Position numbers and translations under genes: made by a program. Positions 10,579 through 43,022 of a stretch of DNA of 64,000 bases are shown here, piece by piece. This stretch comes from Acinetobacter sp. ANC 4169 (GTDB lineage Bacteria > Pseudomonadota > Gammaproteobacteria > Pseudomonadales > Moraxellaceae): the NCBI RefSeq assembly GCF_002135355.1, contig NZ_NEGE01000001.1, forward strand, positions 234,264 to 298,263. The letters are read 5' to 3'. The notes beneath the pieces were generated by a model. It was not told where the DNA came from and searched no databases. It saw only the letters and a list, made by a program, of their open reading frames with translations. How positions within the stretch are numbered: the stretch's first letter is position 1; each line of letters begins with the position of its first letter.

Positions 10579-10764
10579 CGTCCCAACTCCCTTCTGATTG
10601 TTTTTAAAATTTAACTTTTTTAAAAATACATTTCATCCCGAAATATCAATGTGATTAAAAAAACATCACCCCCTATTTATTACCATATTTTTATGATAAT
10701 TCAAATAACTTAACCATAATTTATGACAAAAATTACAAAATAAAAATTCCCATTCATACCTTAA

Positions 10765-11321
10765 AGGGCTTTGTTGCATATACCTGTGATGAAGGCTGAT
10801 TAGGCAATACAATTTTCACATAAATAAGCCTGCCCCCAAAAACTTATCGCACAAGCAATTGCTCTTCTTACAATTTACAAGCGAGCTCTAATCAATCGTG
10901 GAAATATCACGATTTGCTTTGATGCTAAAACTCAGAGTAGGCAAAGTCGAATGCCTAAACAAGGACGACATCAAACCTATTTTGATACCGCCATTCAATG
11001 TTGCTTAATGCTTAAATCCCTCTTTCGTTTATCTTTAGCTATGGTCACTGGCTTTGTGCAAAGCTTGATTAAGCTTTGTGGTTTGGATTGAACACCCCCT
11101 GATTATTCCATCATCTATAGAAGGCAAAAGCATATTGATATTGCGATATTAGGAGATAAACTCAGCGCAAGGAATTTTCAGAGTCAGGTTAACGAGATTC
11201 ATGCACGCATAGCAGTGCTGAATAAATTCACCGAATTAGGCAGGCCTCCCCCAAGTAGTTGCTTGAATTTTGCTGGTTTGAGGAATGTTTTAACTTTTAA
11301 ATATTTATGCAACAAAGCCCT
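10765..11321 (+). mobile_element. Internally deleted IS5-family element with decayed transposase
   Basis: Inverted ends AGGGCTTTGTTGCATA and TATGCAACAAAGCCCT bound a 557-base element, flanked on both sides by TTAA, a likely 4-base target duplication. Inside, on the plus strand, lie pieces of an IS5-family transposase: NRGNISICFDAKTQSRQ, then MPKQGRHQTYFDTAIQCCL, a stop codon, and after an internal gap ILGDKLSARNFQSQV near the right end. Full elements of this family are about 850-1000 bases, so a central part is lost and the copy cannot transpose by itself. Confidence 0.85.
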
Positions 11322-11325
11322 TTAA

Positions 11326-11970: not shown

Positions 11971-13032
11971 ATGCAAGAGAATAGCAGGAATATTCTAGAA
12001 CTGCCTACTGTAAGAGAGATAAGAACACAACTTAAACCGTTGATGCCTGAAAAGGCTTTTGAATCAAATCCTTCTCAGCTTTTACCACTTACATTACATT
12101 TATTAGTAGTGATCATAAGTATTAGTGCACTACGCTTTAATGATTCGATGATTATATTGCTCATCATTGCAGTTTTAGCAGGTAACAGCATCTTTTGTAT
12201 TGGAAATCTTTGCCATTATCTTGGTCATGGTTTGATTGTGCGAAATAAAAATTGGCGATATTTTACTGAGTATGTATTTTTTGCAACATCACTCACACCT
12301 GCTACCGTTTTTAAAGTTGTACATAATAAATATCATCATGCATATACAAATGGTGACCAAGATACTTTTCGGTGCTTTGCTGAAAAAGAGCGGACAACTA
12401 TACGAACAATATTAAGGTTAATTTTCTTTCCTAATAAAAATATTCCTTGGAATCCATTGGTTCTTATCTCTTATAACCTGGTACTCATGAACCAGATTAT
12501 GGGTGCCATGTTTGGTATTGGAAGAAATGGTAATGTTGTAATGCCAGTTATCCCTACGTACACACCACGCCAGCGTGCCATGGTATGGGCTGAGATGTTG
12601 GGGGTATGCGCATTTTTATTTATTTTGTATTGGCTTGGTGGTGCAGATACATCAGCTGTGATTGGAATTACCTTGAGCTATTTAGTAGCTGCCTCTATTT
12701 CCTGTTTTTATATATACACTCAACATGATACTGAAGAGTTAAGTAACGACAATCATCCCTTAATCAATAGTGTTAGCCTTAATCCCAATCGCTTTTTTGA
12801 CTGGTTGCATCACAATGTAGGCTATCATGTTGAACATCATTTGTTTCCTAATATGAACTATCGTTATGCAAAAGCTCTCTCAGCATTATTGCATCAGCAT
12901 TACCCTCATTACTATAAAGTCCGTCTACGTTTAGAAATCTGGCAACAACTGTTTTGTAATGATATCTACAAGCCTAACCCTGAACAGTCAGCAGCTCCGC
13001 TATACCCCGATCTAGACGAGAAGAGTTCATGA
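11971..13032 (+). CDS. Membrane fatty-acyl desaturase/hydroxylase
   Basis: This is a di-iron integral membrane enzyme with the three histidine boxes of acyl desaturases: HYLGH (82-86), HNKYHH (118-123) and HHNVGYHVEHH (280-290). Hydrophobic pairs of segments lie near residues 40-80 and 200-245. It is 353 residues long, normal for the family. Such enzymes desaturate or hydroxylate acyl chains held on lipid, CoA or carrier protein. As first gene of the operon it is likely to tailor the acyl group of the product. Its stop overlaps the next start in ATGA, indicating coupled translation. Regiochemistry and acyl carrier are unknown. Confidence 0.85.
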   Translation: MQENSRNILELPTVREIRTQLKPLMPEKAFESNPSQLLPLTLHLLVVIISISALRFNDSMIILLIIAVLAGNSIFCIGNLCHYLGHGLIVRNKNWRYFTEYVFFATSLTPATVFKVVHNKYHHAYTNGDQDTFRCFAEKERTTIRTILRLIFFPNKNIPWNPLVLISYNLVLMNQIMGAMFGIGRNGNVVMPVIPTYTPRQRAMVWAEMLGVCAFLFILYWLGGADTSAVIGITLSYLVAASISCFYIYTQHDTEELSNDNHPLINSVSLNPNRFFDWLHHNVGYHVEHHLFPNMNYRYAKALSALLHQHYPHYYKVRLRLEIWQQLFCNDIYKPNPEQSAAPLYPDLDEKSS

Positions 13033-14531
13033 AAATGAACTATGAAAACAATTTCCAGACTAATGAATCAATCAATGATGAATATCAGGATATCATTATC
13101 GTTGGTGCTGGATTGTCTGGTATTGCAGCTGCATATTATTTAAAACGACAATGTCCACATAAATCAATACGATTGCTAGAATCTCGTGATCGAGTCGGTG
13201 GTACATGGGATTTATTTAGCTATCCAGGTGTACGTTCTGATTCAGACATGTATACATTTGGTTTTAGCTTTCAGCCGTGGTCTGCTCAGCAGTCAATTGC
13301 AGATGGTAATGATATCCGTGACTACATTGAAAAAACTGCCGCTGAACAGGATGTTCTTAAATCAATTGATTTTGGCTGCCAATTAATAACAGCAAGCTGG
13401 TGCAGCAAGTCAGCACACTGGACATTGACTGTCCAGCGCAGTGGACGTGAAAAAACCGATACGATCCGTTGTTGTTTTCTGATTTTTTGTACTGGTTGTT
13501 ATGATCATAAATTAGGCTATAAACCGCAGTTTACTGGTGAATCTTTATTTAAAGGTGAAATTATTCATCCACAGCAATGGCCGAATCATCTCGACTATAC
13601 TGGTAAACACATCGTAGTTATTGGGTCAGGAGCGACAGCAATTACCCTAGTACCTACTATGGCAAAGACAGCAGCTCATGTCACCATGTTGCAACGCTCC
13701 CCCTCATATATCATGAGTATGCCACGCAAAGACCCATTTGCATATTTGTTACGCTGGGTATTACCGGCATTCATGGTACATCACATTTTGCGCTGGAAAA
13801 ATGCACTTTTTTATACGATATCTTTTGGAATTGCACGTAAATTTCCGCGCCTAGCCCGTATTTTCCTAAAGAGTCATATGTCTCGTGCAGCAGGCCCTGA
13901 TATTGATGCCAAACATCTTTCACCATCCTATATGCCTTGGGATCAGCGAGTATTGGTAACAACGGATGGTGAATTATTCAAGGCGCTACGTGAAGGCCAA
14001 GTCTCAATCTGTACTGCTGACGTGCAAGAATTTACCCCTCAAGGTGTATTGACCAATACAGGTGAACTGCTTAAGGCCGATATTATTGTTACCGCTACAG
14101 GCTTCAACATGCAGTATCTTGGAGGCGTGTTTGTAAGTATTGATGGTGATGAATTTAATATTGGTAATTCCGTGCTTTATCGTGGTTGTATGCTGTCTGG
14201 TTTACCAAATACAGCCATGTTATTTGGTTATACCAACTCCTCTTGGACACTAAAAGCAGAAGCATCTATGCGCTTTTTTTGTCGCATGATTAATTATATG
14301 GATCAACAGGGGCTGAATACCGGAACCCCAACCATTGATCAGTCTCATATAGAAACAGAGCCATTTTTAGAAATGACCTCAGGATATATCGGACGCGCTG
14401 CTGGATACATCCCTCTTCAAGGCCGGTCTTATCCATGGCGATTAAAACAAAATTACCTCTACGATCTGGCGGTACTACAATTTGGCCGGATCAACGATGG
14501 CGTATTGAAATTTACTAAAGCTGAAAAGTGA
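13029..14531 (+). CDS. Baeyer-Villiger-type flavin monooxygenase
   Basis: The protein has an FAD-binding GAGLSG (26-31), RVGGTWDLFSYPGVRSDSD (55-73), a type I Baeyer-Villiger fingerprint FKGEIIHPQQWP (174-185, FxGxxxHxxxWP), and an NADPH-binding GSGATA (199-204). It most resembles the EthA/AlmA branch, which acts on ketones or long alkanes in Acinetobacter and mycobacteria. At 500 residues it is full length. It is translationally coupled to the desaturase by a four-base overlap. In this operon it may oxygenate the acyl chain or, less likely, the beta-lactam scaffold. Substrate unknown. Confidence 0.88.
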   Translation: MKMNYENNFQTNESINDEYQDIIIVGAGLSGIAAAYYLKRQCPHKSIRLLESRDRVGGTWDLFSYPGVRSDSDMYTFGFSFQPWSAQQSIADGNDIRDYIEKTAAEQDVLKSIDFGCQLITASWCSKSAHWTLTVQRSGREKTDTIRCCFLIFCTGCYDHKLGYKPQFTGESLFKGEIIHPQQWPNHLDYTGKHIVVIGSGATAITLVPTMAKTAAHVTMLQRSPSYIMSMPRKDPFAYLLRWVLPAFMVHHILRWKNALFYTISFGIARKFPRLARIFLKSHMSRAAGPDIDAKHLSPSYMPWDQRVLVTTDGELFKALREGQVSICTADVQEFTPQGVLTNTGELLKADIIVTATGFNMQYLGGVFVSIDGDEFNIGNSVLYRGCMLSGLPNTAMLFGYTNSSWTLKAEASMRFFCRMINYMDQQGLNTGTPTIDQSHIETEPFLEMTSGYIGRAAGYIPLQGRSYPWRLKQNYLYDLAVLQFGRINDGVLKFTKAEK

Positions 14532-14567
14532 CCTACCACTACAAAGTCATCCCTAAATTAATAACAA

Positions 14568-16085
14568 ATGGACTTAGCCATGGACAATATTTATAAAAGA
14601 TTCCACCAAACAGCCATACGACTACCGAATAAGTGTGCAATTCGCTATGAACAACGTAGCATTGACTATCAAAATTTACTTCAAGCAGTAGAACGGGTTG
14701 GTAAACAGTTTGAACAGGCTAACCTTATACCAGGAACGGTAATAGCCCTATATTGTGATAATACTATTGAATATATTGTTGCTTATCTAGCAGCGGCTCG
14801 CAATCAGTTGGTGCTAGCTACACTTGATGTCCGTTATACCGATGCTGAATTAGCTGCTATTGTTGCAGAGTCTAGACCTGAATACATACTTGTTGAGAAA
14901 GACCGTCCTTTTGTTCACTCAGTATCAGCCGGACTTGAGTCTGGTCACATTATTGAAGTTCAAGATGATTTATCCCTATTCCTCATTCCCCTTAATCATC
15001 AGCTCCCACGTCATCCAGAGTTGACACCGACAGATTTTATCATTCAATACTCATCTGGCTCCACGGGAACTCCCAAGGGAATCAGATTAAGCCAATATGG
15101 CTTAATCAATAAACTGGAAAACTGGATTGCAACACTTTCTATCCTTGAGGATGATGTATTACTCAACACCCTCACCTTGAGTCACTGTTATGGCATGTAT
15201 GTGCATACTTTGACTGCACTATTTAGTGGTGCGACAGTCGTTATGCTCAATTTGGCCATGCTAACGCCACGTCGTATCGCCACAACTATTGAGGAACAAG
15301 GAGTAACAGTATTTGGTTCACTACCTTATATGTATCAATTACTGGCAGATCTCCCACAAAACTACCAACCCGATTTCACACAAGTACGCTATTTCATTTC
15401 GGGCAGCGCACCGCTAAACGAGAAAACAGCGAAAGATTTTATGCTGCGCTTTAATCGTCCGATTAATCAGGTATTTGGCCTGACGGAAATTGGGTTAATA
15501 ACCTTCAACCGCAATGTGAACGATGTAATGTCTACGGGTTGCCTGACAGCAAATATGGAAGCTCGTATTATTAATGCACAAGGCGAAGATGTTGCAGAGG
15601 GTGAAGTTGGAGAATTACTCGTGCGCTGTGCCTCCATGGCAAATGGCTATTTAGGTCATAGTGAGGAAGAGAAAAATAATTTTGTTGATGGCTGGCTACA
15701 TACTCAAGATTTTGTATACCGTAGCAACGATTATTTCTATGTTGCTGGGCGAAAATCACATTTTATTAATGTCGGTGGCAACAAAGTCAGTCCTGTGGAA
15801 ATTGAAGCTTGCTTAACTACTCATCCTGCAGTGAAAGAAGCTGCCGTTGCAGGTATAAATGATGATTATACCGGAGAACAGATTATTGCCTTTGTAGTCA
15901 TGGCTCACCCAGCCACTTCCTCAGAGCTATTAGTCCATTGTCGAGCATATCTTGCAGCATATAAGGTTCCTACACGCATCATACAAGTTAGTAGCATCCC
16001 CAAATCACCGCTTGGAAAAATACTTAAAAAAAATCTCCTGGAAGACTGGCTTCGAGAAAGCAATCAATCGGTGCAAAAGGTATAA
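14568..16085 (+). CDS. AMP-forming acyl-CoA/ACP ligase
   Basis: This is an adenylating enzyme of the acyl-CoA synthetase/NRPS A-domain superfamily. It has the phosphate loop YSSGSTGTPKGI (about 160-172), FGLTEIGLITFN for the adenylate, DGWLHTQDF, and the C-terminal KSPLGKILKKNL with the catalytic lysine. With 505 residues it has both N- and C-terminal domains. It probably activates a fatty or other carboxylic acid and loads it on the nearby carrier protein or CoA. A second ATG at 14580 has the better upstream GGA. The stop directly abuts the next start codon. Confidence 0.87.
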   Translation: MDLAMDNIYKRFHQTAIRLPNKCAIRYEQRSIDYQNLLQAVERVGKQFEQANLIPGTVIALYCDNTIEYIVAYLAAARNQLVLATLDVRYTDAELAAIVAESRPEYILVEKDRPFVHSVSAGLESGHIIEVQDDLSLFLIPLNHQLPRHPELTPTDFIIQYSSGSTGTPKGIRLSQYGLINKLENWIATLSILEDDVLLNTLTLSHCYGMYVHTLTALFSGATVVMLNLAMLTPRRIATTIEEQGVTVFGSLPYMYQLLADLPQNYQPDFTQVRYFISGSAPLNEKTAKDFMLRFNRPINQVFGLTEIGLITFNRNVNDVMSTGCLTANMEARIINAQGEDVAEGEVGELLVRCASMANGYLGHSEEEKNNFVDGWLHTQDFVYRSNDYFYVAGRKSHFINVGGNKVSPVEIEACLTTHPAVKEAAVAGINDDYTGEQIIAFVVMAHPATSSELLVHCRAYLAAYKVPTRIIQVSSIPKSPLGKILKKNLLEDWLRESNQSVQKV

Positions 16086-17453
16086 ATGATGACCTCATAT
16101 ACAATAAGCGGCTATCGATCTGACTTTGTTGCCCCAGAATCCAGTGTAGCAATTCATCAAACACTCTCTGTGGTTGATCAAGCTATTTCACACATGCCTG
16201 TACACAACCTGTTGTTATATCCAGGTTTACCCAATTTTTCACAAATGCGGGCTGCACTCGTAGAGACACTATCTATACAACCCGATTTTTCCGGACGTTT
16301 ACGTCGAAACTGGCGTGATCTCGGACGTGTGCGAATATGTAATTCAGAAGCAGGTATATTGCTTGAAGAGCAGCAGGTAAATGCTCCTGCAAGCGCTATT
16401 AATCTGCGATGTCCTGATCAAGCATTAATTTTTTCAGCACCTGAACCAGCGGCAAGCGTTGTTAATCAAGATGAGCCTCTGATACGGTTAAGAATCAGCC
16501 GCCTTTCCGATGGATCAGCTGTGCTTGGAATTTGCACGATACATAGCCTCACCGATGGCGGTGGACTGAGTCTTTTTTTACACAATCTTGCCCGAATACT
16601 TCGTGGTCAACCTGCTCAGCCCGTAGAGTTGGGACGCTATGATATTGAACACGACTTCAATGACTGGCGACATGGTTTGAAGATGCAGCAAGCAACTATT
16701 CAGCGCACTCTCTTCTGTCCAAGTCGAGACATCCAGCAAGTATACAATGGCTTGAATAGCATAAAACGCAAATTTTCACCCCATCAAAAGCCACATGCAA
16801 ATATCAAACCTGCTTTGTATGTTTGTATTGACCAAAGTGGTGTAGAGCAGCTGTATAAACAACATGGTGTAGTTGTGGGTCATGTATTAAATGCCATGGT
16901 GTTGCAAGCATTGTCGAAGACCCGTTTTGCTCAAGGCAAGCACTGTATTATGTATGTTCCTGTACTGGATGTCCGAGGACGTATTTATCCAGATAACTAC
17001 ACAGGCAATGCTGTACTCATGGGCGTTTCAGAAGTAGCTATGTCATTGGTTCAAGAAGATAACCTGAAGTCTTTAGGACTAAAACTATTTGCTGACAACA
17101 TGAAAGCCCTAAAAAAAGATTCTTTGCGTGCTTTTATTTCATTGATGCGTTTTTTTCGAGCTGAGATTTTTTTTCATCTGCTTAAAAATGAAGTATCGAT
17201 CATGATTGATAATATCAGCGAACTATCTTTTGCCTCTGTTGACTTAGGTTACGGCGTACCAAACCACATACAAATGCCGCCTCCATCCGGTATCCGGATG
17301 CCGTTCGTTTATATTTACCGCACCCAAGATGGCGGACTAATGTTTCAACTGTCTAACCCATTTGGTGACTGCAGCGAGTTTTGTGAACAGTTAGCAATAA
17401 CAGTAAACAAAAATTTGCCAGGTCACGGCAGTATCATAAAGACTGAAGGATAA
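16086..17453 (+). CDS. BAHD-like/condensation-superfamily acyltransferase
   Basis: This 455-residue CoA-dependent acyltransferase-fold protein has the catalytic HxxxD in IHSLTDGGG (His153, Asp157) and a second motif DLGYG near residue 380. That pairing, HxxxD plus DFGWG-like, is the hallmark of BAHD acyltransferases, which acylate alcohols or amines; NRPS condensation and PapA/WES proteins share only the first motif. Here it most likely transfers an acyl group, activated by the adjacent ligase and carrier protein, to an amine or hydroxyl of the product. The gene starts immediately after the ligase stop. Acceptor and donor are inferred. Confidence 0.75.
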   Translation: MMTSYTISGYRSDFVAPESSVAIHQTLSVVDQAISHMPVHNLLLYPGLPNFSQMRAALVETLSIQPDFSGRLRRNWRDLGRVRICNSEAGILLEEQQVNAPASAINLRCPDQALIFSAPEPAASVVNQDEPLIRLRISRLSDGSAVLGICTIHSLTDGGGLSLFLHNLARILRGQPAQPVELGRYDIEHDFNDWRHGLKMQQATIQRTLFCPSRDIQQVYNGLNSIKRKFSPHQKPHANIKPALYVCIDQSGVEQLYKQHGVVVGHVLNAMVLQALSKTRFAQGKHCIMYVPVLDVRGRIYPDNYTGNAVLMGVSEVAMSLVQEDNLKSLGLKLFADNMKALKKDSLRAFISLMRFFRAEIFFHLLKNEVSIMIDNISELSFASVDLGYGVPNHIQMPPPSGIRMPFVYIYRTQDGGLMFQLSNPFGDCSEFCEQLAITVNKNLPGHGSIIKTEG

Positions 17454-17458
17454 AAATA

Positions 17459-17689
17459 ATGCCAATACTTCATGATATGGATGCAATCCTACGAGAAGAA
17501 CTAGGACGTCGTAACTGCTTTCCAGAGCATATTCAGCCTGAAGACCAGCTGACCTCTTTGGGATTTGATTCATCCAGCGTGCTAAGAGTGATTTCTGTAA
17601 TGGAAGAGCACTACGAGCTTGACTACGAGAAAATGACAGATGGTCTTTGGACTGTTGCTGATCTGCTTCGACTCATTTCATCAAAGTAG
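17459..17689 (+). CDS. Acyl carrier protein
   Basis: The stand-alone carrier protein is 76 residues. The phosphopantetheine attachment motif is LGFDSSSVLRVISVMEE, with Ser38 following Asp37 in the usual DS position. Flanking helices and acidic character fit the family. GAAGGAT lies just before the ATG, six bases after the acyltransferase stop. The operon supplies its own phosphopantetheinyl transferase at the far end, so this carrier is probably dedicated to the pathway, holding the acyl chain between ligase, desaturase and acyltransferase. Confidence 0.85.
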   Translation: MPILHDMDAILREELGRRNCFPEHIQPEDQLTSLGFDSSSVLRVISVMEEHYELDYEKMTDGLWTVADLLRLISSK

Positions 17690-17700
17690 AGCGCTACCGT

Positions 17701-18549
17701 ATGAATTACAAAATTTTTAAAGTGCCTTATGAAGAAGGGGCTTATTGGCGCAAGGGTGCAGGGCGTGGTCCAGATGCTATTTATGAGCATCTGCAACGAG
17801 CACATCCACAGTCAGTTTCAGGTGACGCTAATCTAGGAATCCGGTTTTCATCTTTTCCAGTACAATTAGTCAGTCATTCCCCTTATTCCAAAAGTGGCTA
17901 TTTGGCAACAATTGAACAGGCTATTACCGATAGTTTGGACAAGCAGTTTTTCCCTGTAATTTTGGGGGGCGACCACGCTATTACTTTACCTATTATCCGT
18001 GCTTTTTCAGCGAAATATGGAGTTAAACAGTTTGGCATCATCCATATTGATGCACACTCCGATACTTTTCCTCCTGTAGATGGCTACAAATATCATCATG
18101 GGGCCGTATTTAGAAATATCGTTGAAGAAGGTCTCGTTGCACCAAAAAATATTCATCAAATTGGTGTTCGCGGTTTATGTGGCGATGGCTGGATGTCCTT
18201 TGTGGAAGAACAAGGAATTAACTTAGTGCATATGGACAAGTTTCGTGCTCTCGGTTGCAGTCTTCATTCTCTCAAGCTTAGAAAAGATATCCCCTACTAC
18301 GTTAGCATCGATATTGACTCAGTAGATCCTGCATTTGCTCCGGGTACTGGAACGCCTGTGCCAGGCGGCTTTAGCTCCGCTGAAATACTATTGCTAGCCA
18401 GACAAATTAGCACATTAGATGTAATCGGTTTTGATCTCGTTGAAGTCGCTCCTGTTTATGACCATGCCGATATTACGTCATTGTTAGCAGCCCATATTGT
18501 CGCTGAATTAATGATTAATATTAGTGCCTATAAGAAAGTGAGTACCTGA
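17701..18549 (+). CDS. pah: Proclavaminate amidinohydrolase-like ureohydrolase
   Basis: This manganese ureohydrolase of the arginase/agmatinase fold carries all metal ligands: GGDH (His92), HIDAHSD (Asp117, His119, Asp121) and SIDIDSVDP (Asp204, Asp206). Around them YHHGAVFRNIVEEGLV and AFAPGTGTPVPGG follow the pattern I remember of the clavulanate enzyme PAH, which removes the guanidino group as urea after ring formation. It is 282 residues, ~30 shorter at the N-terminus than PAH. Its position beside BLS and CeaS homologues argues for that role over plain agmatinase, but residues alone do not exclude agmatine. It overlaps the next start in TGATG. Confidence 0.82.
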   Translation: MNYKIFKVPYEEGAYWRKGAGRGPDAIYEHLQRAHPQSVSGDANLGIRFSSFPVQLVSHSPYSKSGYLATIEQAITDSLDKQFFPVILGGDHAITLPIIRAFSAKYGVKQFGIIHIDAHSDTFPPVDGYKYHHGAVFRNIVEEGLVAPKNIHQIGVRGLCGDGWMSFVEEQGINLVHMDKFRALGCSLHSLKLRKDIPYYVSIDIDSVDPAFAPGTGTPVPGGFSSAEILLLARQISTLDVIGFDLVEVAPVYDHADITSLLAAHIVAELMINISAYKKVST

Positions 18550-20066
18550 TGTTACAAGGTTTTTTTGGAGAAGCAGGGATTGCTGGAAATAGTATTAAGC
18601 ACCAGCCGAAATTCTCAGTATTAGCTCCCACACAACAAAAAATAACGATGCAGATGCCACAAGGTATTGTTAGCGTAGTAATTGCTTCAGATATATCCCC
18701 TAAAAATGATATTAAAGCTTTTGGTATTGGCTATTTATCAAATAGGGAAGTCATCGTTCGTACACTTGCAGCACTTCAGTACACATATTCTGAAACTGCA
18801 ACAGATTTTGATTTGCTGCACCAATTATATTTTCTGATAGGTCGTGATGCCTTTCGCTTGGCAGAAGGACATTTTTGCTGTGTGCTTATCTATGATACAG
18901 AGGTGGTATTGGCTACAGGAAAAACTCCTGGTCCAAAACTCTATTATTATCAGGGGGAGCATGGGCAATTGCTCTTCGCATCGGAAATAGGCGCATTTCC
19001 ATCGGAATATCTTGCTCTAGTGCCGCATGATTCAAATTTTGAACAACATGCTCATTGCGATCCCACATTTACACCTTTTGTTCATGTACGGTCAGTATGC
19101 CCAGGCGAATTAGTGCTCCAAACATTGAACCCGCTCTCAGCACCGCAACGCATCAGCTATTATAGTCCTTTGCGGACTATTCAATACTCCGCAGGCGACG
19201 AGCATACAGCCAGTGAGCATCTTCGTACAATTTTACAAGATGCGGTGAACGCTATTCCTGGGAAGCATGCCATTTGCCTGGTATCTGGAGGATTAGATTC
19301 CAGCATTATTGGTTATCTTGCGAAACAACATTTTGAGTCCGTACGTTATTTGAGTATTGGAACAGCACAGCGCAATGAATTTGAACCTGCACGCTTATTT
19401 GTGGAGTCCATTCAAGGTAATTATCAGCAAATTGAATTTTCTGAACAAGACTTTCTGGTGAACCTTGCCGAAGTCATAGCTTTAGTCGAGCATAGTTATA
19501 GCACTTACCTTGAGTACCTAGTACCTGTTCATATTGCCCACAAGCACTTGCCACAAGATGCGGATGTCATATTGTCTGGCTATGGTTCAGATATTTTATT
19601 CGCAGGATTTGCAAAACCTCACAATTCCACCCACGATATTGCCAGTTTAATTCGAACGGAATATCAATCTACATATTGGGCCAATGAAGCTTCTCAGACC
19701 TTAGGATTTGCCCATGGCCTGCATGTAGCCTACCCCTACTTTGATAGCCGGGTTGTAGATTTAGCATTCTCTTTTAGCCCCCACCTCTGCCACATCAAAA
19801 AAATTGAAAAATTTATATTAAGACAGGCTTTTTCCAATGATATCGATGAACGTGTGGTATGGAGAAAAAAAGTAGGCGTTCATGAAGGCACTGGTTGCGA
19901 GGACTTTTTTTCGGCATATCTCACTTCATCAAGTGAACAGATCAATAGTCTTGAGTTACGCCAACGTAAAGACGTTTTTTGTCATCGTATCCTCGAAGAA
20001 ATCATGATTTTAGGCATTACCCCACAAAACATAAACTTTAATAAAATAAGGAGTTCTATTCTATGA
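18549..20066 (+). CDS. bls: Beta-lactam synthetase-like ATP-dependent cyclase
   Basis: This is an asparagine-synthetase-B-fold protein that adenylates a carboxylate. The PP-loop LVSGGLDSS (246-252) is intact. The N-terminal Ntn domain starts MLQGFFGE and lacks the Cys2 nucleophile, so it has no glutaminase; this is the hallmark of beta-lactam synthetase and CarA rather than AsnB. GTAQRNEFEPARLF, LEYLVP (Tyr323), SGYGSDI (344-349), Glu380 and RKKVGVHEGTG (Lys441) align with remembered BLS blocks, including its Tyr/Glu dyad and catalytic lysine. At 505 residues it is close to BLS (~513). It should close the four-membered ring of carboxyethylarginine. Confidence 0.88.
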   Translation: MLQGFFGEAGIAGNSIKHQPKFSVLAPTQQKITMQMPQGIVSVVIASDISPKNDIKAFGIGYLSNREVIVRTLAALQYTYSETATDFDLLHQLYFLIGRDAFRLAEGHFCCVLIYDTEVVLATGKTPGPKLYYYQGEHGQLLFASEIGAFPSEYLALVPHDSNFEQHAHCDPTFTPFVHVRSVCPGELVLQTLNPLSAPQRISYYSPLRTIQYSAGDEHTASEHLRTILQDAVNAIPGKHAICLVSGGLDSSIIGYLAKQHFESVRYLSIGTAQRNEFEPARLFVESIQGNYQQIEFSEQDFLVNLAEVIALVEHSYSTYLEYLVPVHIAHKHLPQDADVILSGYGSDILFAGFAKPHNSTHDIASLIRTEYQSTYWANEASQTLGFAHGLHVAYPYFDSRVVDLAFSFSPHLCHIKKIEKFILRQAFSNDIDERVVWRKKVGVHEGTGCEDFFSAYLTSSSEQINSLELRQRKDVFCHRILEEIMILGITPQNINFNKIRSSIL

Positions 20067-21715
20067 AATTTAGTGAATTATTACTAAAAGAAATTAAACG
20101 TCGTGGTATTAAGAGAGTTTTTGGAGTACCTGGGCGTGAAAATGCCAGTATTCTTTTTAACGAAGTTGAAGGGATTGAGTATATTACTGCTCGCGTTGAA
20201 TTTAACGCAGGAATCATGGCCGATTTCACAGGACGTATGACAGCTAAACCACAAGTCTGTTTTTCCACAATGGGGCCTGGTGCAACCAATATGACTACAG
20301 CTGTTGCATCTGCCATGCTTAACAAGTCACCCCTCGTATTTTTTTCCGCCCAGCTTGAACGTGGTGATATTTATTATAATCAAACCCATCAATGTGTCGA
20401 TCAAACCGCCATTATGGCTCCGATTACCAAGTGGTCTTATGAATTAAAATCCACACAAGAGCTTTCGCAAGTCGTTGAACGTGCATTTACACTAGCAATG
20501 ACTGAACCCGTTGGTCCAGTACACATTGCCATTCCAACAGATATGTTTAAGCAAGAAGTATCTGCGCCTGAATCTATAGATCAACCCATTAATCTAGAAG
20601 TAATTGTTCCAAACCACCCGCTACAGAACGATCAAATCATGCGGGCACATAATATTATATCTTCTTCAAATCAAGCACTATTTTTAATTGGTGCGGAATC
20701 TGTTCGTACTAACCAACATGAAGAAGTTATCAACTTCTGTCGCGAATGGAATATTCCCTACATGACTGCGGCAAATGCTAAGGGTGCTGAACCATTTAGC
20801 AACAAGCTTAACTACGGTTCAGCCAGTTGCTATATGGAAGGAATTATTGGTTACCCTGCACTCCCGGATATCTTCACAGACGTTGACACACTGGTTTGTA
20901 TTGGTTATCAATACGTTGATGATCTTTTACCCAAAATGTGGGCCTATGGCAAACCTAAGACCATTATCAATTTAGCAGCCACTCCAACCTTCAGTATTCA
21001 TGATAAATACTGCCCTGACCTTGAAATTGTCGGTCATAGCGGAGAAATTTTAAATAAATTGTCTGCATTAGGGATACGGCGCCAAGCTGATCGCGACATT
21101 GAACATATCAAGGACTATTACCGCAAAGCCTTGACTGATACCTCCATACGCAATGGTCGCTTAACACCACAGCAGGTTATTGCTCAGGTTAACCCTTATT
21201 TTGCAGAAGATGCTATTTGCATTACTGATATTGGCTATTATCGCCATCATGCTATTTTGCTTTCAGAGCCGACCAATACCTCACAGTTTTTCAGTGACAC
21301 TGGTTTGTCCAGCTTTGGTACAGGTTTGCCAAGTGCAATTGCGGCTCAATTAGAATTCCCTGAACGTCGTGTATTCCTGCTTTGTGGTGATGGAGGCTTC
21401 CATTCCGGTAGTTGCGATCTAGCTACGCTGGCACGTTATCAATTACCTGTTATTATTATTGTTATGGACAATTCTGCATTTGAACTCATCCACCTTTATC
21501 AACAGCGACATAACACCGACATCAACAGTGATATCGTTTTACTTGATAAAATTGACTTTGTTAAACTAGCCGAAGCAAATGGTTGTCAAGGCGTGCGTAT
21601 TGATTCCGTACAAGAACTTGCCAATGCGATTAGCAACCATGACCGTACCGGACCACTGGTAATCGAAGTGCCTATGCGATATGGTGAGCATGATAAATTC
21701 CGTGAATCTTTCTAA
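20063..21715 (+). CDS. ceaS: N2-(2-carboxyethyl)arginine synthase-like ThDP enzyme
   Basis: CeaS joins glyceraldehyde 3-phosphate to L-arginine, the first committed clavam step. This 550-residue protein has the three-domain ThDP layout with catalytic Glu46, the GDGG motif (442-445) and Asn470. It also shows CeaS-specific blocks: VFGVPGRENASILF (19-32), NQTHQCVDQTAIMAP (106-120, His109), LNYGSASCYMEGII, TDIGYYRHHAILL and SSFGTGLPSAIAAQ. These match the Streptomyces enzyme far better than acetolactate synthase. AAGGAG precedes the ATG, which overlaps the bls stop in ATGA. Arginine as substrate is inferred from family and context. Confidence 0.9.
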   Translation: MKFSELLLKEIKRRGIKRVFGVPGRENASILFNEVEGIEYITARVEFNAGIMADFTGRMTAKPQVCFSTMGPGATNMTTAVASAMLNKSPLVFFSAQLERGDIYYNQTHQCVDQTAIMAPITKWSYELKSTQELSQVVERAFTLAMTEPVGPVHIAIPTDMFKQEVSAPESIDQPINLEVIVPNHPLQNDQIMRAHNIISSSNQALFLIGAESVRTNQHEEVINFCREWNIPYMTAANAKGAEPFSNKLNYGSASCYMEGIIGYPALPDIFTDVDTLVCIGYQYVDDLLPKMWAYGKPKTIINLAATPTFSIHDKYCPDLEIVGHSGEILNKLSALGIRRQADRDIEHIKDYYRKALTDTSIRNGRLTPQQVIAQVNPYFAEDAICITDIGYYRHHAILLSEPTNTSQFFSDTGLSSFGTGLPSAIAAQLEFPERRVFLLCGDGGFHSGSCDLATLARYQLPVIIIVMDNSAFELIHLYQQRHNTDINSDIVLLDKIDFVKLAEANGCQGVRIDSVQELANAISNHDRTGPLVIEVPMRYGEHDKFRESF

Positions 21716-21763
21716 CTTTACACTCTGATAAAATACTCACTGAAGATTTGAGAAAAGCCTTAT

Positions 21764-23059
21764 ATGGAAAAAGTATTTGATAATTTAGGCATCTATCTGG
21801 ATGAACATGCTGAACGACCAGTAGAACAAGATTTAATTTATTTTGAGCGTGTAGACAATGGTGAATCAATAGTCCTGCGTAACGATCTTTCTTGTCAACC
21901 TAGCGGCATTAAAAGTTACTCAGCACATATTGGTATATGTAAAGAAGGTTCTGCTGACTTCACTCTAATTGTTCTGGATAAGCCAGGTCTGGGGAAAGCT
22001 GTCTATACTCGCAGCCTAAGTTGCAGTGATGCGGTACGTTTTGATAGGGAAAATACCCGTGTAGGTAATATCCAGTCACTATGCGTTATTAGCAAGAATG
22101 CTAACGTATTCACACCTTCTGCCAAGCAAGATATTCTTCACATTGCCCAACAGGTGGAAACTGTAACTGGGGTTCCGATAACCCAGCAGTTAATTTCATG
22201 CACAGGAGTAATTGGCGTTCCATTACCCATGGACAAAGTCGTGTCAGGGATTCAGTCTGCCTCAGGCAATCTTGAATATGGTCAGCTCGAAGCAAGTGCC
22301 AATGCTATTATGACCACTGACAAACAAGCCAAAATGGTTTCTGTTGAGTTTGATGGAATTCGTATAGCCGGGTTCTGTAAGGGTGCTGGCATGATTGAAC
22401 CGAACATGGCAACAATGCTCGCATACTACTTTACCAATGCGGTCATTCCGGCACAAAGGCTAGAAGCCATTCTTAAGCGTGCAGCCGATTTGACATTTAA
22501 TGCGGTTTCTGTGGACACAGATACCAGCACAAGTGACACAGTTGCAATTCTTAGTACCGCTGAACGTGAAATGTCTGAAAAAGATATAGAAAACTTTGAA
22601 CGTGCTTTAACAGCAATGTTCTTTAAGTCTAGCCGAGATATTCTTGGTCAGGCTGAAGGCGCCAATTCAGTGATTGAAGCCCAAGTATCTCTTTCTACCT
22701 CATTCGAAGATGCACGCGCATATGCCAAAAAAATCATCAACTCACCGCTGATCAAAACCGCTGTACACGGTAGTGACCCAAACTGGGGGCGTGTAGTTAT
22801 GGCAATTGGTAAACCAATGGAACGTAATTCGTTGGCAGAGATTAACCCGGAGCAATTGCGTATTAGTATTATGGACGAGGTCGTATTTAATTATGGTGCA
22901 CCACTACCATTACAATTAGATATTTTGTCTAATCGCATGCGAGCAGCAAGAACGGTACGTATCAAGGTAGAAATTGGCGCACCAGTTTACACAGCTAAAG
23001 CATGGGGCTGTGATCTAAGCGAAGAGTACATTCGCATTAATGCTGATTACACCACTTAA
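21764..23059 (+). CDS. ArgJ/OAT2-type N-acetyltransferase
   Basis: This is a self-cleaving Ntn hydrolase-fold protein like ornithine acetyltransferase. CKGAGMIEPNMATML (205-219) contains the Ala216-Thr217 cleavage and nucleophile pair. SVDTDTSTSDT, HGSDPNWGR and the C-terminal WGCDLSEEYIRINADYTT are canonical. At 431 residues it has about 40 extra N-terminal residues compared with ArgJ. Clavam clusters carry such a gene (OAT2), where it handles acetyl groups from N-acetylglutamate; here it may boost arginine supply or acetylate an intermediate. Its position directly after CeaS favours a pathway role over a second housekeeping argJ. Confidence 0.88.
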   Translation: MEKVFDNLGIYLDEHAERPVEQDLIYFERVDNGESIVLRNDLSCQPSGIKSYSAHIGICKEGSADFTLIVLDKPGLGKAVYTRSLSCSDAVRFDRENTRVGNIQSLCVISKNANVFTPSAKQDILHIAQQVETVTGVPITQQLISCTGVIGVPLPMDKVVSGIQSASGNLEYGQLEASANAIMTTDKQAKMVSVEFDGIRIAGFCKGAGMIEPNMATMLAYYFTNAVIPAQRLEAILKRAADLTFNAVSVDTDTSTSDTVAILSTAEREMSEKDIENFERALTAMFFKSSRDILGQAEGANSVIEAQVSLSTSFEDARAYAKKIINSPLIKTAVHGSDPNWGRVVMAIGKPMERNSLAEINPEQLRISIMDEVVFNYGAPLPLQLDILSNRMRAARTVRIKVEIGAPVYTAKAWGCDLSEEYIRINADYTT

Positions 23060-23765
23060 TCCTGAAGATGGAGAACTTGTGACAGTGGGCTTTGGTTCAC
23101 TCGTTCACAAGTTTTTTCCTTCATCCTTGGGTATTTCGATCTTTGAAACTCAAATAGATCAAATCCCATCTTCATTCGTTTCTCCTACTAAAATTGCATC
23201 ACTTTCCACCTTTTCATCTCACAGAAGTGCCGAGTTTTATGCGGGTAGATATTGTGCTCACAAGGCAATGCAGCAATTGGGTGTACAAGAGATTATCGAA
23301 ATTCCCCACGATAAAAATCATGCACCTATATGGCCCATAGGTTTAACCGGCAGTATTAGCCATAGTCAATACCGGGCTATTGCAGTAGCAGGATGGGCAA
23401 CACAAGTTTTGGGATTAGGAATCGATATTCTTCCCGTATCAGAAGATATTGACTTACGCCAATATCATCTTTTTTGCACCTCTCATGAACTGGAAGCATT
23501 ACAGAATTTTTTCGATATCCAACGCCACTTCAAAGGATTAACTTTGCTTTCAGCAAAGGAAGCAGCTTTTAAATGTATTTATCATACGACAGGGAAACGT
23601 GTTGATTTACGTACAATATCGATTTTATGGGAACCCATAGGCACAGGATTTACGGCATATAGTTCCTGTGCAGAACACATACGATTGTATGGAAATCAAC
23701 TCGTCGCAAATCAACATTTTTATACAGGCGTTTACTCCATTCACGCTTCTACACGTAACTCCTGA
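23040..23765 (+). CDS. Sfp/EntD-type 4'-phosphopantetheinyl transferase
   Basis: This transfers phosphopantetheine from CoA to carrier proteins. The magnesium motif GLGIDILPVSED (about 124-135) and LLSAKEAAFKCIY (about 168-180) are present, as is TGSISHSQYRAIAVA. At 241 residues the length fits the EntD-like branch. The frame opens at 23040, overlapping the end of the ArgJ-like gene; a GTG at 23079 preceded by GGAG is the more likely start. As last gene of the operon it presumably activates the carrier protein at 17459. Its 3' end overlaps the convergent SRPBCC gene by 25 bases. Confidence 0.85.
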   Translation: MLITPLNPEDGELVTVGFGSLVHKFFPSSLGISIFETQIDQIPSSFVSPTKIASLSTFSSHRSAEFYAGRYCAHKAMQQLGVQEIIEIPHDKNHAPIWPIGLTGSISHSQYRAIAVAGWATQVLGLGIDILPVSEDIDLRQYHLFCTSHELEALQNFFDIQRHFKGLTLLSAKEAAFKCIYHTTGKRVDLRTISILWEPIGTGFTAYSSCAEHIRLYGNQLVANQHFYTGVYSIHASTRNS

Positions 23766-24262
23766 AGTAACACTAATGTCGTCGCCAAATCTTTATGTGA
23801 TCCTTCACGAATATTTTTAATTGCCTGCTGCTCAATAGCACTTCCTACTAGCGGGATGTCACACTGAATATGCCAATTCAGATCCATAATACACTGCCCT
23901 TGTTCAGAGTCATCAATTAAAGAGGTTTTGCAACGAATTGATAAGCCCTTGGGTTGTTTCATCTGAATTTCTACCCAACCTTCCATTGTTTGCCAATCCC
24001 ACGCATATGTATGTGTAATTGTCCGGGACTCATCCCCTTTCATTAAACGGCGCATGGAGGCTGGTAATTTCAGCATTGGTGGCAGTTGATATTGACAGCA
24101 AATTTCAAAATATTGCGGCTTATCATGGCAACCAATAACCGTAATATTTTCATAACCGAGACGTTTATATTTAAGAACTGGAAAATCAGAATGCGTAAAT
24201 AATGCTCGCATATCACTTAATGAGACAGGAAAAATAACTTGATCTGAAAAAGATTTAGACAA
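23741..24262 (-). CDS. SRPBCC/DUF2505-like lipid-binding-fold protein
   Basis: The 173-residue soluble protein has the alternating pattern of a START/SRPBCC helix-grip domain, most like DUF2505 (N-terminal SKSFSDQVIFPVSLSDMRALF, middle HTYAWDWQTMEGWVEIQM). Such proteins bind hydrophobic ligands; some are cyclases or hydrolases. It faces the beta-lactam-type operon and overlaps the PPTase gene tail-to-tail. AGGAGT lies before the ATG. It may bind or protect the lipid product, but no catalytic residues are obvious, and it could be unrelated. Confidence 0.6.
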   Translation of the reverse strand: MSKSFSDQVIFPVSLSDMRALFTHSDFPVLKYKRLGYENITVIGCHDKPQYFEICCQYQLPPMLKLPASMRRLMKGDESRTITHTYAWDWQTMEGWVEIQMKQPKGLSIRCKTSLIDDSEQGQCIMDLNWHIQCDIPLVGSAIEQQAIKNIREGSHKDLATTLVLLQELRVEA

Positions 24263-24416
24263 AACATACTCCTTTTATTTTTTATTTTTGCAGCTTTTTA
24301 GAATCATCTATTTTAATAGATCATGTGTAGTAGCTCAAACCTGATCTGACAATTACCCGATTTTTGTTGTATCTGTCAGCTTAAATTTGAGTTAGTACAA
24401 TTTAGAAGAGTTTTGT

Positions 24417-24443
24417 CTTTTAAATCTTTGTGCAACAAAGCCG
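24417..24443 (+). mobile_element. Solitary right end of the IS5-type element
   Basis: The sequence CTTTTAAATCTTTGTGCAAC, followed by AAAGCC, differs at only two positions from the right end of the element at 11295-11320, including its terminal repeat. No other part of the element is present. With the remnant at 10765-11321 it brackets the whole biosynthetic operon, both right ends in the same orientation. Confidence 0.7.
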
Positions 24444-24670
24444 TTTTGATTTAGTGGTTGGTACTAAAGGACAAAAGTGGAAGAATGGAGGTAATTCTGG
24501 TCAAGATGGCGCGGTATTGGTTTTGCTACTATTTCGACTAGCGAGTTAGACATTACTGCAAAATATTAAGTGCAGAATAAAAAACCAAATTAGTGCAAAA
24601 AAAGCCGAAAATTTACATCTACCCTGCTTACACGTATTTATTTTGATTGCTTACATGAATTTAGATATTA
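24444..24670. other. Unassigned spacer with a gene fragment-like stretch
   Basis: A plus-strand stretch from about 24449 can be read as DLVVGTKGQKWKNGGNSGQD before stopping. It has a coding-like glycine-rich texture but no start and no family I recognise. It may be the truncated end of a gene cut by the neighbouring IS or integrase event. The rest is AT-rich and featureless. Confidence 0.35.
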
Positions 24671-24673
24671 AAA

Positions 24674-24704
24674 AACCACTTAGGATTAGTACACGTAAGT
24701 GGTT
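24674..24704. terminator. Hairpin beside the tRNA fragment, likely native tRNA terminator
   Basis: AACCACTTA and TAAGTGGTT form a nine-pair stem with A and T runs. On the minus strand it follows the 3' end of the tRNA fragment by nine bases, where a tRNA terminator would be expected. Confidence 0.65.
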
Positions 24705-24712
24705 GTTTTATA

Positions 24713-24760
24713 TGGTGGGCCCACACAGACTTGAACTGTGGACCAACGGATTATGAGTTC
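24713..24760 (-). other. Integration (att) site: 3' fragment of tRNA-Ile2(CAU)
   Basis: Read on the minus strand, these 48 bases give an anticodon loop with CAT, the variable loop, a complete T arm (CCACAGTTCAAGTCTGTG) and acceptor strand ending GGGCCCACCA. The 5' half of the tRNA is absent; AT-rich DNA follows. The GGGCCCA acceptor and loop fit tRNA-Ile2(CAU), whose anticodon C is modified to lysidine, more than tRNA-Met. Beside a tyrosine integrase this is a classical attachment-site duplicate. The retained 3' half means the mobile element lies to the right and the original chromosome to the left. Confidence 0.8.
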
Positions 24761-24911: not shown

Positions 24912-26180
24912 ATGACAACTACAATATTTAAATTTACAACAACTCGACTTGCACAATGCACCTGCCCTTCTAAAAAGGATTATGTGATTTATTGGGATGA
25001 ATTAGTGAAAGGATTAGGCTTAAAAACTTACATCTCTACTAAAAAATCATTCCTATTTCAGTCTCGTTTAGGTGGTAAAGTCATCAAAATAAGTATTGGT
25101 TCATTTCCAAGTTGCACGATTGATCAAGCACGCCAAAAGGCTAAGGAACTTGATGTAATGTGTCTAAATGGGATTGATCCACGCCTAGAAAAAAAGAAGT
25201 TAATTGCTAAGAATGAGCATGAGGCTAGGGAGAATAAACGCAAAAAATTAATATTCAACGATATTTGGGAAGCATATCTTATTGCAAACAAATCACGATG
25301 GAGAGAGCGAACTTATAATGATCATATTCGTTTAGCATCTGGTAATAAAGAAATCAAAATTGGTAAGCGTTCAACTTTATCCAAACCACAGCCTATTTAC
25401 GCTCTTTTAAATATCCCTGTTAGTGAATTAAATGCCATCACGTTAAAGCAATGGTTAGATGAAGAAAATTCTATTCGTCCTACCTCCGCTTCACTTTCAT
25501 TTCGCTTAGTTAGAGCATGTTTAAATTGGTCAGAAGAGCAGATTTTATTTGCTGGATTATTACCAGATAAATCCATTCACGCGAAAATAGTTAAACAATC
25601 TGTCGCGTCCATCAAAGCTAAGAAAGATAGCCTACAAAAGGAACAGTTACCGTCATTTTTCAAAGCAGTACTAGCTCTTGATAACCCTTACATGACTGCT
25701 TATATTCTTATAACTTTAATAACAGGTGCACGCCGTAACGAGATTGCAAAACTTAAATGGAAAGATATTGATTTTAAATGGAATACTATGCACATCTCAG
25801 ATAAGATCGATGATGATGGTCGTACTATTCCACTTACTCCTTATGTCAAAAGTTTACTCACTGCATTGCATCGACATAATGATTATGTTTTCTATTCTGA
25901 GAGGTCATCCACGACCTATATAGTTGAGCCAACTAAAAGCCTTAAACTAGCAGCAAGGAATGCAGGTCTTGACGATTTATCTATTCATGGCTTACGGCGT
26001 TCATTCAAGACATTATCCGAATGGATTTCGCTACCTAGCGGCATTACTGCCCAGATTACTGGTCATAAACCTAGTGGCACAGAGGAAAAACACTATACTG
26101 TAAGACCTATAGACTTGCTCAGGAAATGGCATATTGAGTATGAAAACTGGATTCTTTCTCAAGCCAAAATTACCTTATAA
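24912..26180 (+). CDS. P4-type tyrosine site-specific integrase
   Basis: This 422-residue tyrosine recombinase has the DUF4102-type N-terminal arm-binding domain (GGKVIKISIGSFPSCTIDQA), a core-binding middle domain, and a catalytic domain with Arg in GARRNEIAKLKW (~273), HGLRRSF (His359, Arg362), GHK and the nucleophile Tyr395 in KHYTVR. All catalytic residues are present, so it may be active. It begins 150 bases from the tRNA-Ile2 fragment, the usual arrangement for islands using tRNA 3' ends. It reads toward the catabolic region. Confidence 0.92.
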   Translation: MTTTIFKFTTTRLAQCTCPSKKDYVIYWDELVKGLGLKTYISTKKSFLFQSRLGGKVIKISIGSFPSCTIDQARQKAKELDVMCLNGIDPRLEKKKLIAKNEHEARENKRKKLIFNDIWEAYLIANKSRWRERTYNDHIRLASGNKEIKIGKRSTLSKPQPIYALLNIPVSELNAITLKQWLDEENSIRPTSASLSFRLVRACLNWSEEQILFAGLLPDKSIHAKIVKQSVASIKAKKDSLQKEQLPSFFKAVLALDNPYMTAYILITLITGARRNEIAKLKWKDIDFKWNTMHISDKIDDDGRTIPLTPYVKSLLTALHRHNDYVFYSERSSTTYIVEPTKSLKLAARNAGLDDLSIHGLRRSFKTLSEWISLPSGITAQITGHKPSGTEEKHYTVRPIDLLRKWHIEYENWILSQAKITL

Positions 26181-42814: not shown

Positions 42815-42834
42815 TAAATAATAATATTGAGATG

Positions 42835-43022
42835 TTCTACAATCGAATCAGGCGTCATTCGCATCTCGATGGGATGAGCCCAGAAGCCTTTGAGGCAGCT
42901 TCAAAATGAGGCTGTCTCATGTCTAGGATACTGGGAGCAGTCCAGCTTGTCCTTTACGTAGTGCACGCATGACTTCAATACCTTTTCGCTTATCATCAAT
43001 GACTATTTGCAACAGTGCCGTT
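42835..43022. mobile_element. Joined scraps of IS3- and IS6-type elements
   Basis: From 42835 the plus strand reads YNRIRRHSHLDGMSPEAFEA and stops, the C-terminus of an IS3-family transposase, followed by GGCTGTCTCA, likely its end. From about 43022 backward the minus strand starts with GGCACTGTTGCAAATAG, an IS6-type (IS26-like) terminal repeat, then encodes KGIEVMRALRKGQAG, the C-terminus of an IS6 transposase. Both elements are almost wholly deleted. The scar lies exactly between the two catabolic operons. Confidence 0.75.

Follow-up and report, generated by a model that had tools for sequence, protein, structure and literature searches.

An Acinetobacter operon combining relatives of the early clavulanic acid enzymes with an acyl-loading module: a candidate pathway to an acylated monocyclic beta-lactam

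In Streptomyces clavuligerus the early steps towards clavulanic acid are carried out by carboxyethylarginine synthase (CeaS), which makes carboxyethylarginine, by beta-lactam synthetase (BLS), which closes the ring, and by proclavaminate amidinohydrolase (PAH), which removes the amidino group after hydroxylation by clavaminate synthase (CAS) (available text of PMC6097109). According to the accessible part of a 2025 study (PMC12482188), clavulanic acid-like clusters occur in many genomes, and early precursor genes are found in more than half of the hits to the S. clavuligerus cluster, so that partial clusters as such are already known. The same part of that study traced beta-lactamase inhibition via mutants to the monocyclic guanidinoproclavaminic acid, which needs CAS; activity was lost in a cas double mutant, an argument against inhibition by the unhydroxylated monocycle on its own. 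As far as the accessible text of the literature examined goes, characterised arginine-derived beta-lactams have so far come only from Streptomyces. Here we analyzed a stretch of 64,000 nucleotides (the window) from Acinetobacter sp. ANC 4169 (assembly GCF_002135355.1, contig NZ_NEGE01000001.1, positions 234,264 to 298,263), which carries a ten-gene operon with relatives of CeaS, BLS, PAH and the ornithine acetyltransferase OAT2. This operon probably directs the synthesis of an acylated monocyclic beta-lactam from arginine, a type of product that would be novel among Gram-negatives.

The list of open reading frames of the window contains ten plus-strand genes between 11971 and 23765, all with open frames (Table 1). 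The intergenic distances along the operon are -4, +36, 0, +5, +11, -1, -4, +48 and -20 bp, and neighboring genes consequently overlap or lie at most 48 bp apart, in agreement with a preliminary description of this DNA as ten tightly packed genes on one strand. Pfam placed all ten proteins (FA_desaturase, FMO-like, AMP-binding, Transferase (BAHD), PP-binding, Arginase, Asn_synthase, TPP enzyme, ArgJ and PPTase) and thereby also assigned the six genes beside the early ones, which had been labeled desaturase, flavoprotein, ligase, BAHD-like acyltransferase, carrier protein and phosphopantetheinyl transferase (PPTase). Motifs were checked in nine of the ten proteins by pattern, or by alignment in the case of the BLS-like and CeaS-like proteins, and the sought motifs were present. 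The claim that relatives of PAH, BLS, CeaS and OAT2 stand consecutively was borne out by the ranking of PDB sequences, with 1gq6, 1upa and 1vz6 in first place and the BLS structure 1jgt in second place after CarA, ahead of the asparagine synthetases. The wording that the early genes are fused with a second module had to be dropped: the two modules are neighbors in one operon and there are no fused genes. Directly observed are the genes with their order and relatives, the conservation of catalytic residues, and the position within an insertion.

For the CeaS-like protein, which depends on thiamine diphosphate by family, carboxyethylarginine synthase 1upa ranked first in the PDB with 379 bits, followed by acetolactate synthase with 191 bits. 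In a quick tree of 51 rows, made up of 49 of 120 listed relatives (120 of 149 matches were listed), the window protein and CeaS1, it grouped with CeaS1 with a Shimodaira-Hasegawa-like approximate likelihood ratio support of 99; the acetolactate synthase outgroup picked for this tree did not form one clade. A comparison of 27 chosen proteins of the clade with 12 chosen proteins from the acetolactate synthase side yielded 30 CeaS-specific columns common to the window protein and CeaS1. PDB ranking, tree and residue columns exclude an acetolactate synthase, and the protein did not fall among these enzymes in the tree, a check set beforehand.

The BLS-like protein ranked closest to CarA (1q15, 105 bits), the substrate of which is carboxymethylproline, then to BLS (1jgt, 89 bits), with asparagine synthetases at 58 bits or less. 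The residues Y345, E380 and K441, which presumably correspond to the catalytic dyad and lysine Y348, E382 and K443 in BLS, were present in 26 of 26 aligned rows; the lysine is not discriminating since it is also conserved in AsnB. The N-terminus MLQG lacks the glutaminase cysteine, whereas AsnB begins with MC. The predicted fold was closest to product-bound BLS and nearer to BLS than to AsnB. In the tree, calculated without the fragment P0027, 26 rows formed a clade of their own (100/100), and BLS1, the Streptomyces cattleyicolor sequence and CarA were long branches at an open node. Tree, fold, alignment with the dyad and the missing Cys2 rule out an asparagine synthetase, and the protein does not belong among AsnB, likewise a check set beforehand. 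To the plasmid-borne paralogues of S. clavuligerus (L037) the CeaS-, BLS-, PAH- and OAT-like proteins are 37%, 28% (over 266 residues), 39% and 26% identical, and the BLS-like protein shares 20-28% identity with characterised or named enzymes. Taken together, the evidence supports the assignment of the early enzymes, with the carboxyethylarginine synthase-like and beta-lactam synthetase-like proteins the most firmly placed of the four.

The PAH-like protein matched proclavaminate amidinohydrolase 1gq6 best (173 bits), followed by 3-guanidinopropionase (140 bits), and has kept the metal-binding motifs GGDH, DAHSD and DIDSVDP. For the OAT-like protein the best PDB match was the ornithine acetyltransferase 1vz6 (231 bits), which we take to be S. 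clavuligerus OAT2. It belongs to the ArgJ family (Pfam, 353.7 bits, cut-off 32), contains the KGAGM-MATML region, presumably the self-cleavage site, and stands apart from 25 housekeeping ArgJ proteins of the order with a support of 100, which speaks against a housekeeping ArgJ. Its N-terminal extension of about 44 residues (21764-21900) is also found in the Nocardia and Paenibacillus relatives described below, and is absent from the Cellvibrio relative, OAT1 and the ArgJ of the genome itself. The identities of PAH and OAT can be placed less firmly than those of CeaS and BLS, because both proteins also exceed NCBIfam cut-offs, for agmatinase (189 versus 174 bits) and for ArgJ (363 versus 351 and 298.1 versus 298). 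A plain agmatinase is compatible with the sequence of the PAH-like protein taken alone; the gene context speaks otherwise and we disfavor it.

A scan of genome contigs with two BLS peptide patterns returned 34 loci. Three of these were closely related (identity 38-50%), and the remaining 31, with E-values of 2e-8 or weaker, were set aside. The genes of the Nocardia concava locus run AMP ligase, BAHD, acyl carrier protein (ACP), PAH, BLS, CeaS, GDSL hydrolase and OAT, with identities to the window proteins of 58% (ligase), 39% (BAHD), 61% (ACP), 65% (PAH), 50% (BLS), 72% (CeaS) and 63% (OAT). Paenibacillus xylaniclasticus has ligase, ACP, PAH, BLS, CeaS and OAT, followed by ABC transporter genes and a PhyH protein, and Cellvibrio sp. 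UBA7671 has CeaS, ligase, an ACP-like gene, other enzymes, PAH, BLS, OAT and a condensation-domain protein. CeaS, BLS, PAH, OAT, the ligase and an ACP-like gene are present in all four named clusters, the window included. The GDSL hydrolase of N. concava lies between CeaS and OAT (L003:13192-13878); GDSL-domain nocE genes were noted in clavulanic acid-like clusters of non-producers (available text of PMC6856088). Upstream of the shared genes, at the place of the desaturase and the flavoprotein in the window, the Nocardia locus (L003:2996-5919) encodes a di-iron protein similar to the small chain of ribonucleotide reductase and a second AMP ligase.

Because the ligase and the carrier protein recur beside the early genes in other clusters, acylation of the product can be deduced with good reason; a lipid nature of this group is a guess. 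Accordingly, from the acylated arginine-derived beta-lactam of the preliminary description we retain the early enzymes and the acylation and let go of the lipid. In the BAHD-like protein the HxxxD motif is represented by HSLTD, and DLGYG is a variant of DFGWG; its predicted fold matches plant BAHD enzymes, with plant HCT as best match. Relatives of this protein are very rare: among 6185 candidates, four protein clusters reached E<=1e-8, namely that of the window protein and three others with 39-44% identity. The flavoprotein matched cyclohexanone monooxygenase best in the PDB (6e-35, best stretch residues 21-229). A ligase, a desaturase and an ACP are also the three genes of the JamABC alkyne cassette (available text of PMC8406139), and all three occur in the operon, so the acyl module could furnish a beta-lactam with an alkyne or terminal alkene tail. 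We regard this as quite unlikely, since no ligase match in the PDB carried the name fatty acyl-AMP ligase (best 60 of 224 matches) and the Nocardia, Cellvibrio and Paenibacillus loci have ligases without a match to the desaturase.

The acylated monocycle, the product that we favor, could arise as follows. The pathway would begin with CeaS linking arginine and a three-carbon unit, for a carboxyethylarginine synthase glyceraldehyde 3-phosphate, to give N2-(2-carboxyethyl)arginine, as its clade and residues suggest. BLS would adenylate this compound and close the four-membered ring to deoxyguanidinoproclavaminate, a step suggested by dyad, fold and clade, and PAH would strip the guanidine to yield deoxyproclavaminate, 5-amino-2-(2-oxoazetidin-1-yl)pentanoate, with a free amine. 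This amine would be a natural acyl acceptor, and a step of this type calls for a ligase, a carrier protein, a PPTase and a BAHD-like transferase, all of which the operon encodes. Going by families and co-occurrence, the AMP ligase would load an acyl group onto the PPTase-activated carrier protein, from which the BAHD-like enzyme may move it to the amine. OAT might raise the arginine supply or move an acyl group. In the weakest step of the scheme, the desaturase and the Baeyer-Villiger-type flavoprotein would tailor the acyl chain or the amino acid part; tailoring of the acyl chain seems likelier than tailoring of the ring.

Using Pfam at E<=1e-3, no family of 2-oxoglutarate-dependent oxygenases, including clavaminate synthase, was detected among the ten proteins, with the remainder of the genome not searched. 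PAH would therefore have the unhydroxylated monocycle as its substrate, unless the desaturase-family protein takes over the hydroxylation. In the second case the di-iron protein could replace clavaminate synthase, hydroxylate and perhaps cyclise the beta-lactam, and lead to a bicyclic clavam-like product with acylation as late tailoring. The S. clavuligerus PAH acts after hydroxylation by CAS (available text of PMC6097109), other clusters contain different oxygenases (TauD-like in Nocardia, PhyH in Paenibacillus), and against the arginine hydroxylase GntB the desaturase gives a weak match of 22.8 bits. This score is far below the cut-off of 380, and the same protein reaches 109 bits against the fatty acid desaturase DesB (cut-off 500); a bicyclic product is in our view unlikely.

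Several observations weigh against the acylated beta-lactam. The low identity of the BLS-like protein and the higher rank of CarA in the PDB mean that its substrate may differ. The PAHs of the four clusters group together (97), but it is an open node that ties them to S. clavuligerus PAH1 rather than to agmatinases, and both PAH and OAT pass the general cut-offs given above. In the OAT tree the S. clavuligerus OAT1 has a very long branch, so that a tie of the OAT-like protein to OAT2-type enzymes is tentative. The ligase scores far below the NCBIfam cut-offs, which therefore point to no particular acid substrate. As for the carrier protein, the Nocardia protein stays below the Pfam cut-off (17.2 versus 20.8 bits), the Cellvibrio counterpart was identified by inspection of its frame, and the window ACP gave no tblastn match in the Cellvibrio or Paenibacillus locus. 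Within about 10 kb to either side, the three other loci lacked any match (E<=1e-3) to the desaturase, the flavoprotein or the PPTase. A BAHD protein was recognised in two of the four clusters; Cellvibrio has the condensation-domain protein and in Paenibacillus neither was recognised. The structure model of the BAHD-like protein has low confidence (predicted local distance difference test score 64.8), and the best PDB sequence match is the ester-forming rosmarinate synthase (2.5e-9), with the amine-acylating agmatine coumaroyltransferases ranking lower (0.0036 and 0.042); N- rather than O-acylation follows from the pathway, not from the enzyme. Finally, none of the Pfam families assigned to the ten proteins is that of an exporter or a self-resistance determinant. 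If the BLS-like enzyme made another amide or lactam, the operon could yield a modified arginine or ornithine lipid without a beta-lactam ring, which would agree with its low identity to characterised BLS and CarA and with the resemblance that a free amine and an acyl module would have to aminolipid synthesis. The Tyr/Glu dyad in all aligned rows, the fold nearest to product-bound BLS and the presence of CeaS in the same cluster in four of four named cases argue against this reading and render such a lipid improbable.

Table 1. Features of the operon and its flanks (window coordinates)
Feature	Position	Strand	Basis
Membrane fatty-acid-desaturase-family di-iron oxidase	11971..13032	+	PF00487 5.6e-26; His boxes HYLGH, HNKYH, HVEHH
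Baeyer-Villiger-type flavin monooxygenase	13029..14531	+	PF00743 1.1e-16; FKGEIIHPQQWP fingerprint at residue 174
AMP-forming acyl ligase, predicted carrier-protein loader	14568..16085	+	PF00501 2.8e-69; 58% identical to N. concava ligase
BAHD-like acyltransferase	16086..17453	+	PF02458 64.3 bits, cut-off 22.7; HSLTD at 153, DLGYG at 386
Acyl carrier protein	17459..17689	+	PF00550 24.1 bits, cut-off 20.8; Ser38 in GFDSS; 61% identical to N. concava
PAH-like amidinohydrolase	17701..18549	+	1gq6 best; tree; only arginase-family gene found in genome
Beta-lactam-synthetase-like enzyme	18549..20066	+	Tyr345, Glu380, Lys441 kept; no Cys2
Carboxyethylarginine-synthase-like thiamine diphosphate enzyme	20063..21715	+	PDB ranking, tree, residue columns
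OAT2/ArgJ-family acyltransferase	21764..23059	+	PDB, ArgJ family, tree; distinct from genome's housekeeping ArgJ
Phosphopantetheinyl transferase	23040..23765	+	PF17837 3.4e-18, PF01648 6.1e-10
DUF2505 protein	23741..24262	-	PF10698 1.5e-13; convergent with operon, within inserted block
Insertion-sequence remnant, left border of inserted block	10761..11325		20-nt terminal inverted repeats 10761-10780 / 11306-11325, 100%; broken frame with stops
Second copy (80%) of insertion-sequence end at 11278-11323; right border	24401..24446		Repeat comparison
Host sequence resumes; about last 46 nt of tRNA-Met(CAT), 5' part missing here	24648..24758	-	Comparison with relatives

The stretches of six relatives were compared; both flanks were found in L066, L067 and L068, and the right flank lay outside the stretch in L069, L070 and L071. 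Host synteny extends as far as 10746 and starts again at 24648. The distance between these two points is 13.9 kb in the window versus 163 bp in the relative G013, 2.1 kb in G018 and about 1.8 kb, with an integrase, in G012. From its frames, the broken frame in the left insertion-sequence remnant reads as a transposase. The BLS-like gene was detected in one of 149 sampled genomes of the genus (E<=1e-20), the desaturase in one of 59 (E<=1e-10) and the CeaS-like gene in one of 369 sampled genomes of the class (E<=1e-90), in each case the window's own; Cellvibrio, of the same class, is a carrier outside that result. Of 150 genomes from the genus to which the Nocardia record belongs, two matched the CeaS query, that record with 72% and one other with 33%. 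The insertion between transposon remnants and this rarity in the genus would fit an acquired operon that is silent cargo and not expressed, and a promoter scan with 24 candidates versus a mean of 41 in shuffled sequences, hence no excess, says little either way. All ten frames are open, the GC content at third codon positions of the operon (29-39%) is close to that of three host genes (28-40%), and the database cluster of the BAHD protein holds four member sequences with a representative 99% identical, which suggests that near-identical intact carriers exist; we give silent cargo little probability. The host-like composition also does not favor recent transfer from Nocardia or another high-GC donor. 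A plasmid origin was rejected, as the operon had no near match in 72,556 plasmid records.

The terminator scan was uninformative, and the DUF2505 region (23741-24319, query bases 1-579) had no listed match besides the window's own. The conserved 111 bp at the right flank, considered as a structured RNA, gave no Rfam hit and proved to hold the tRNA-Met end. Beside this truncated tRNA gene an integrase begins at 24912, followed by mostly minus-strand genes to the contig end (24912-64000). As carrier of the operon this integrase was rejected: it lies outside the inserted block, beyond the tRNA end, and G012 has a 70% similar integrase without the operon, so that it more likely belongs to the right-hand island. 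The gene set of this region reads as aromatic catabolism (Rieske-type oxygenases and hydrolases; frames read, no family scan), and part of it matches A. baumannii with 76.6%. A segment of 125 bp (about 42824-42948) is 96.8% identical in a plasmid of Acinetobacter sp. NCu2D-2; the same search gave 884 plasmid records at 99% or more, many of them enterobacterial, and the segment is perhaps a common piece of mobile elements.

The open-licence PMC literature contained, among the matches listed, no report of a cassette of this make-up or of CeaS in Acinetobacter. The earlier statement that such a product is not described in this kind of bacterium holds to this extent, but relatives are already in databases: CeaS relatives were found in metagenomes and in named records, for example from Paraburkholderia, some of them automatically named N2-(2-carboxyethyl)arginine synthase (best 120 of 149 matches; the protein searches scored only candidates sharing most words, 7995 in one search and 7999 in the CeaS search). 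It is quite possible, and we put it forward tentatively, that the clusters represent a new class of natural products, arginine-built acyl-azetidinones, in which a transferable CeaS-BLS-PAH-OAT unit with an acyl-loading ligase and carrier protein is distributed over Pseudomonadota, Actinomycetota and Bacillota and combined with host-specific tailoring; in the Acinetobacter version the monocyclic beta-lactam would bear an acyl chain that is both desaturated and oxygenated, with a serine-active-site target as the probable one. Since the operon is compact, with ten genes, shares a core across three phyla and comes from a low-GC Gram-negative genus noted for its resistance to beta-lactams, it would make a possible new type of beta-lactam easily accessible to experiment. 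A pathway with the early genes but no CAS would also test the role of unhydroxylated or otherwise oxidised, acylated monocycles.

Among known systems in Gram-negative bacteria, the cluster of Pantoea sp. At-9b (L073), which we take to be a carbapenem cluster judging by its neighbors, shares the ring-closing enzyme derived from BLS/AsnB with the Tyr/Glu dyad, but has no CeaS, PAH or OAT among its ten annotated neighbors. The tabtoxin pathway of Pseudomonas likewise uses a BLS-like enzyme, TblS, in a Gram-negative bacterium, with another precursor and no known CeaS/PAH/OAT set. The JamABC cassette is alike in combining ligase, desaturase and ACP (available text of PMC8406139); it seems to differ in that the window ligase was not recognised as a fatty acyl-AMP ligase by its best 60 of 224 PDB matches and the desaturase is unmatched in the three other clusters. 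The clavulanic acid-like clusters of Streptomyces pratensis and other bacteria also carry early genes outside clavulanic acid producers, whereas the acyl-loading unit of the window operon is not mentioned in the accessible text of these sources (PMC12482188, PMC6856088). With the early clavulanic acid and clavam pathway of S. clavuligerus the operon shares relatives of CeaS, BLS, PAH and OAT2 in adjacent genes, with the CeaS columns and the BLS dyad kept, and to this extent the earlier term clavam-type is justified; for the later steps it is not, as the ten genes contain no clavaminate synthase-like gene and instead add the ligase, ACP, BAHD-like protein, desaturase, flavoprotein and PPTase. 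A clavulanic acid cluster is thereby ruled out, and the operon is a variant of the arginine-derived beta-lactam pathway.

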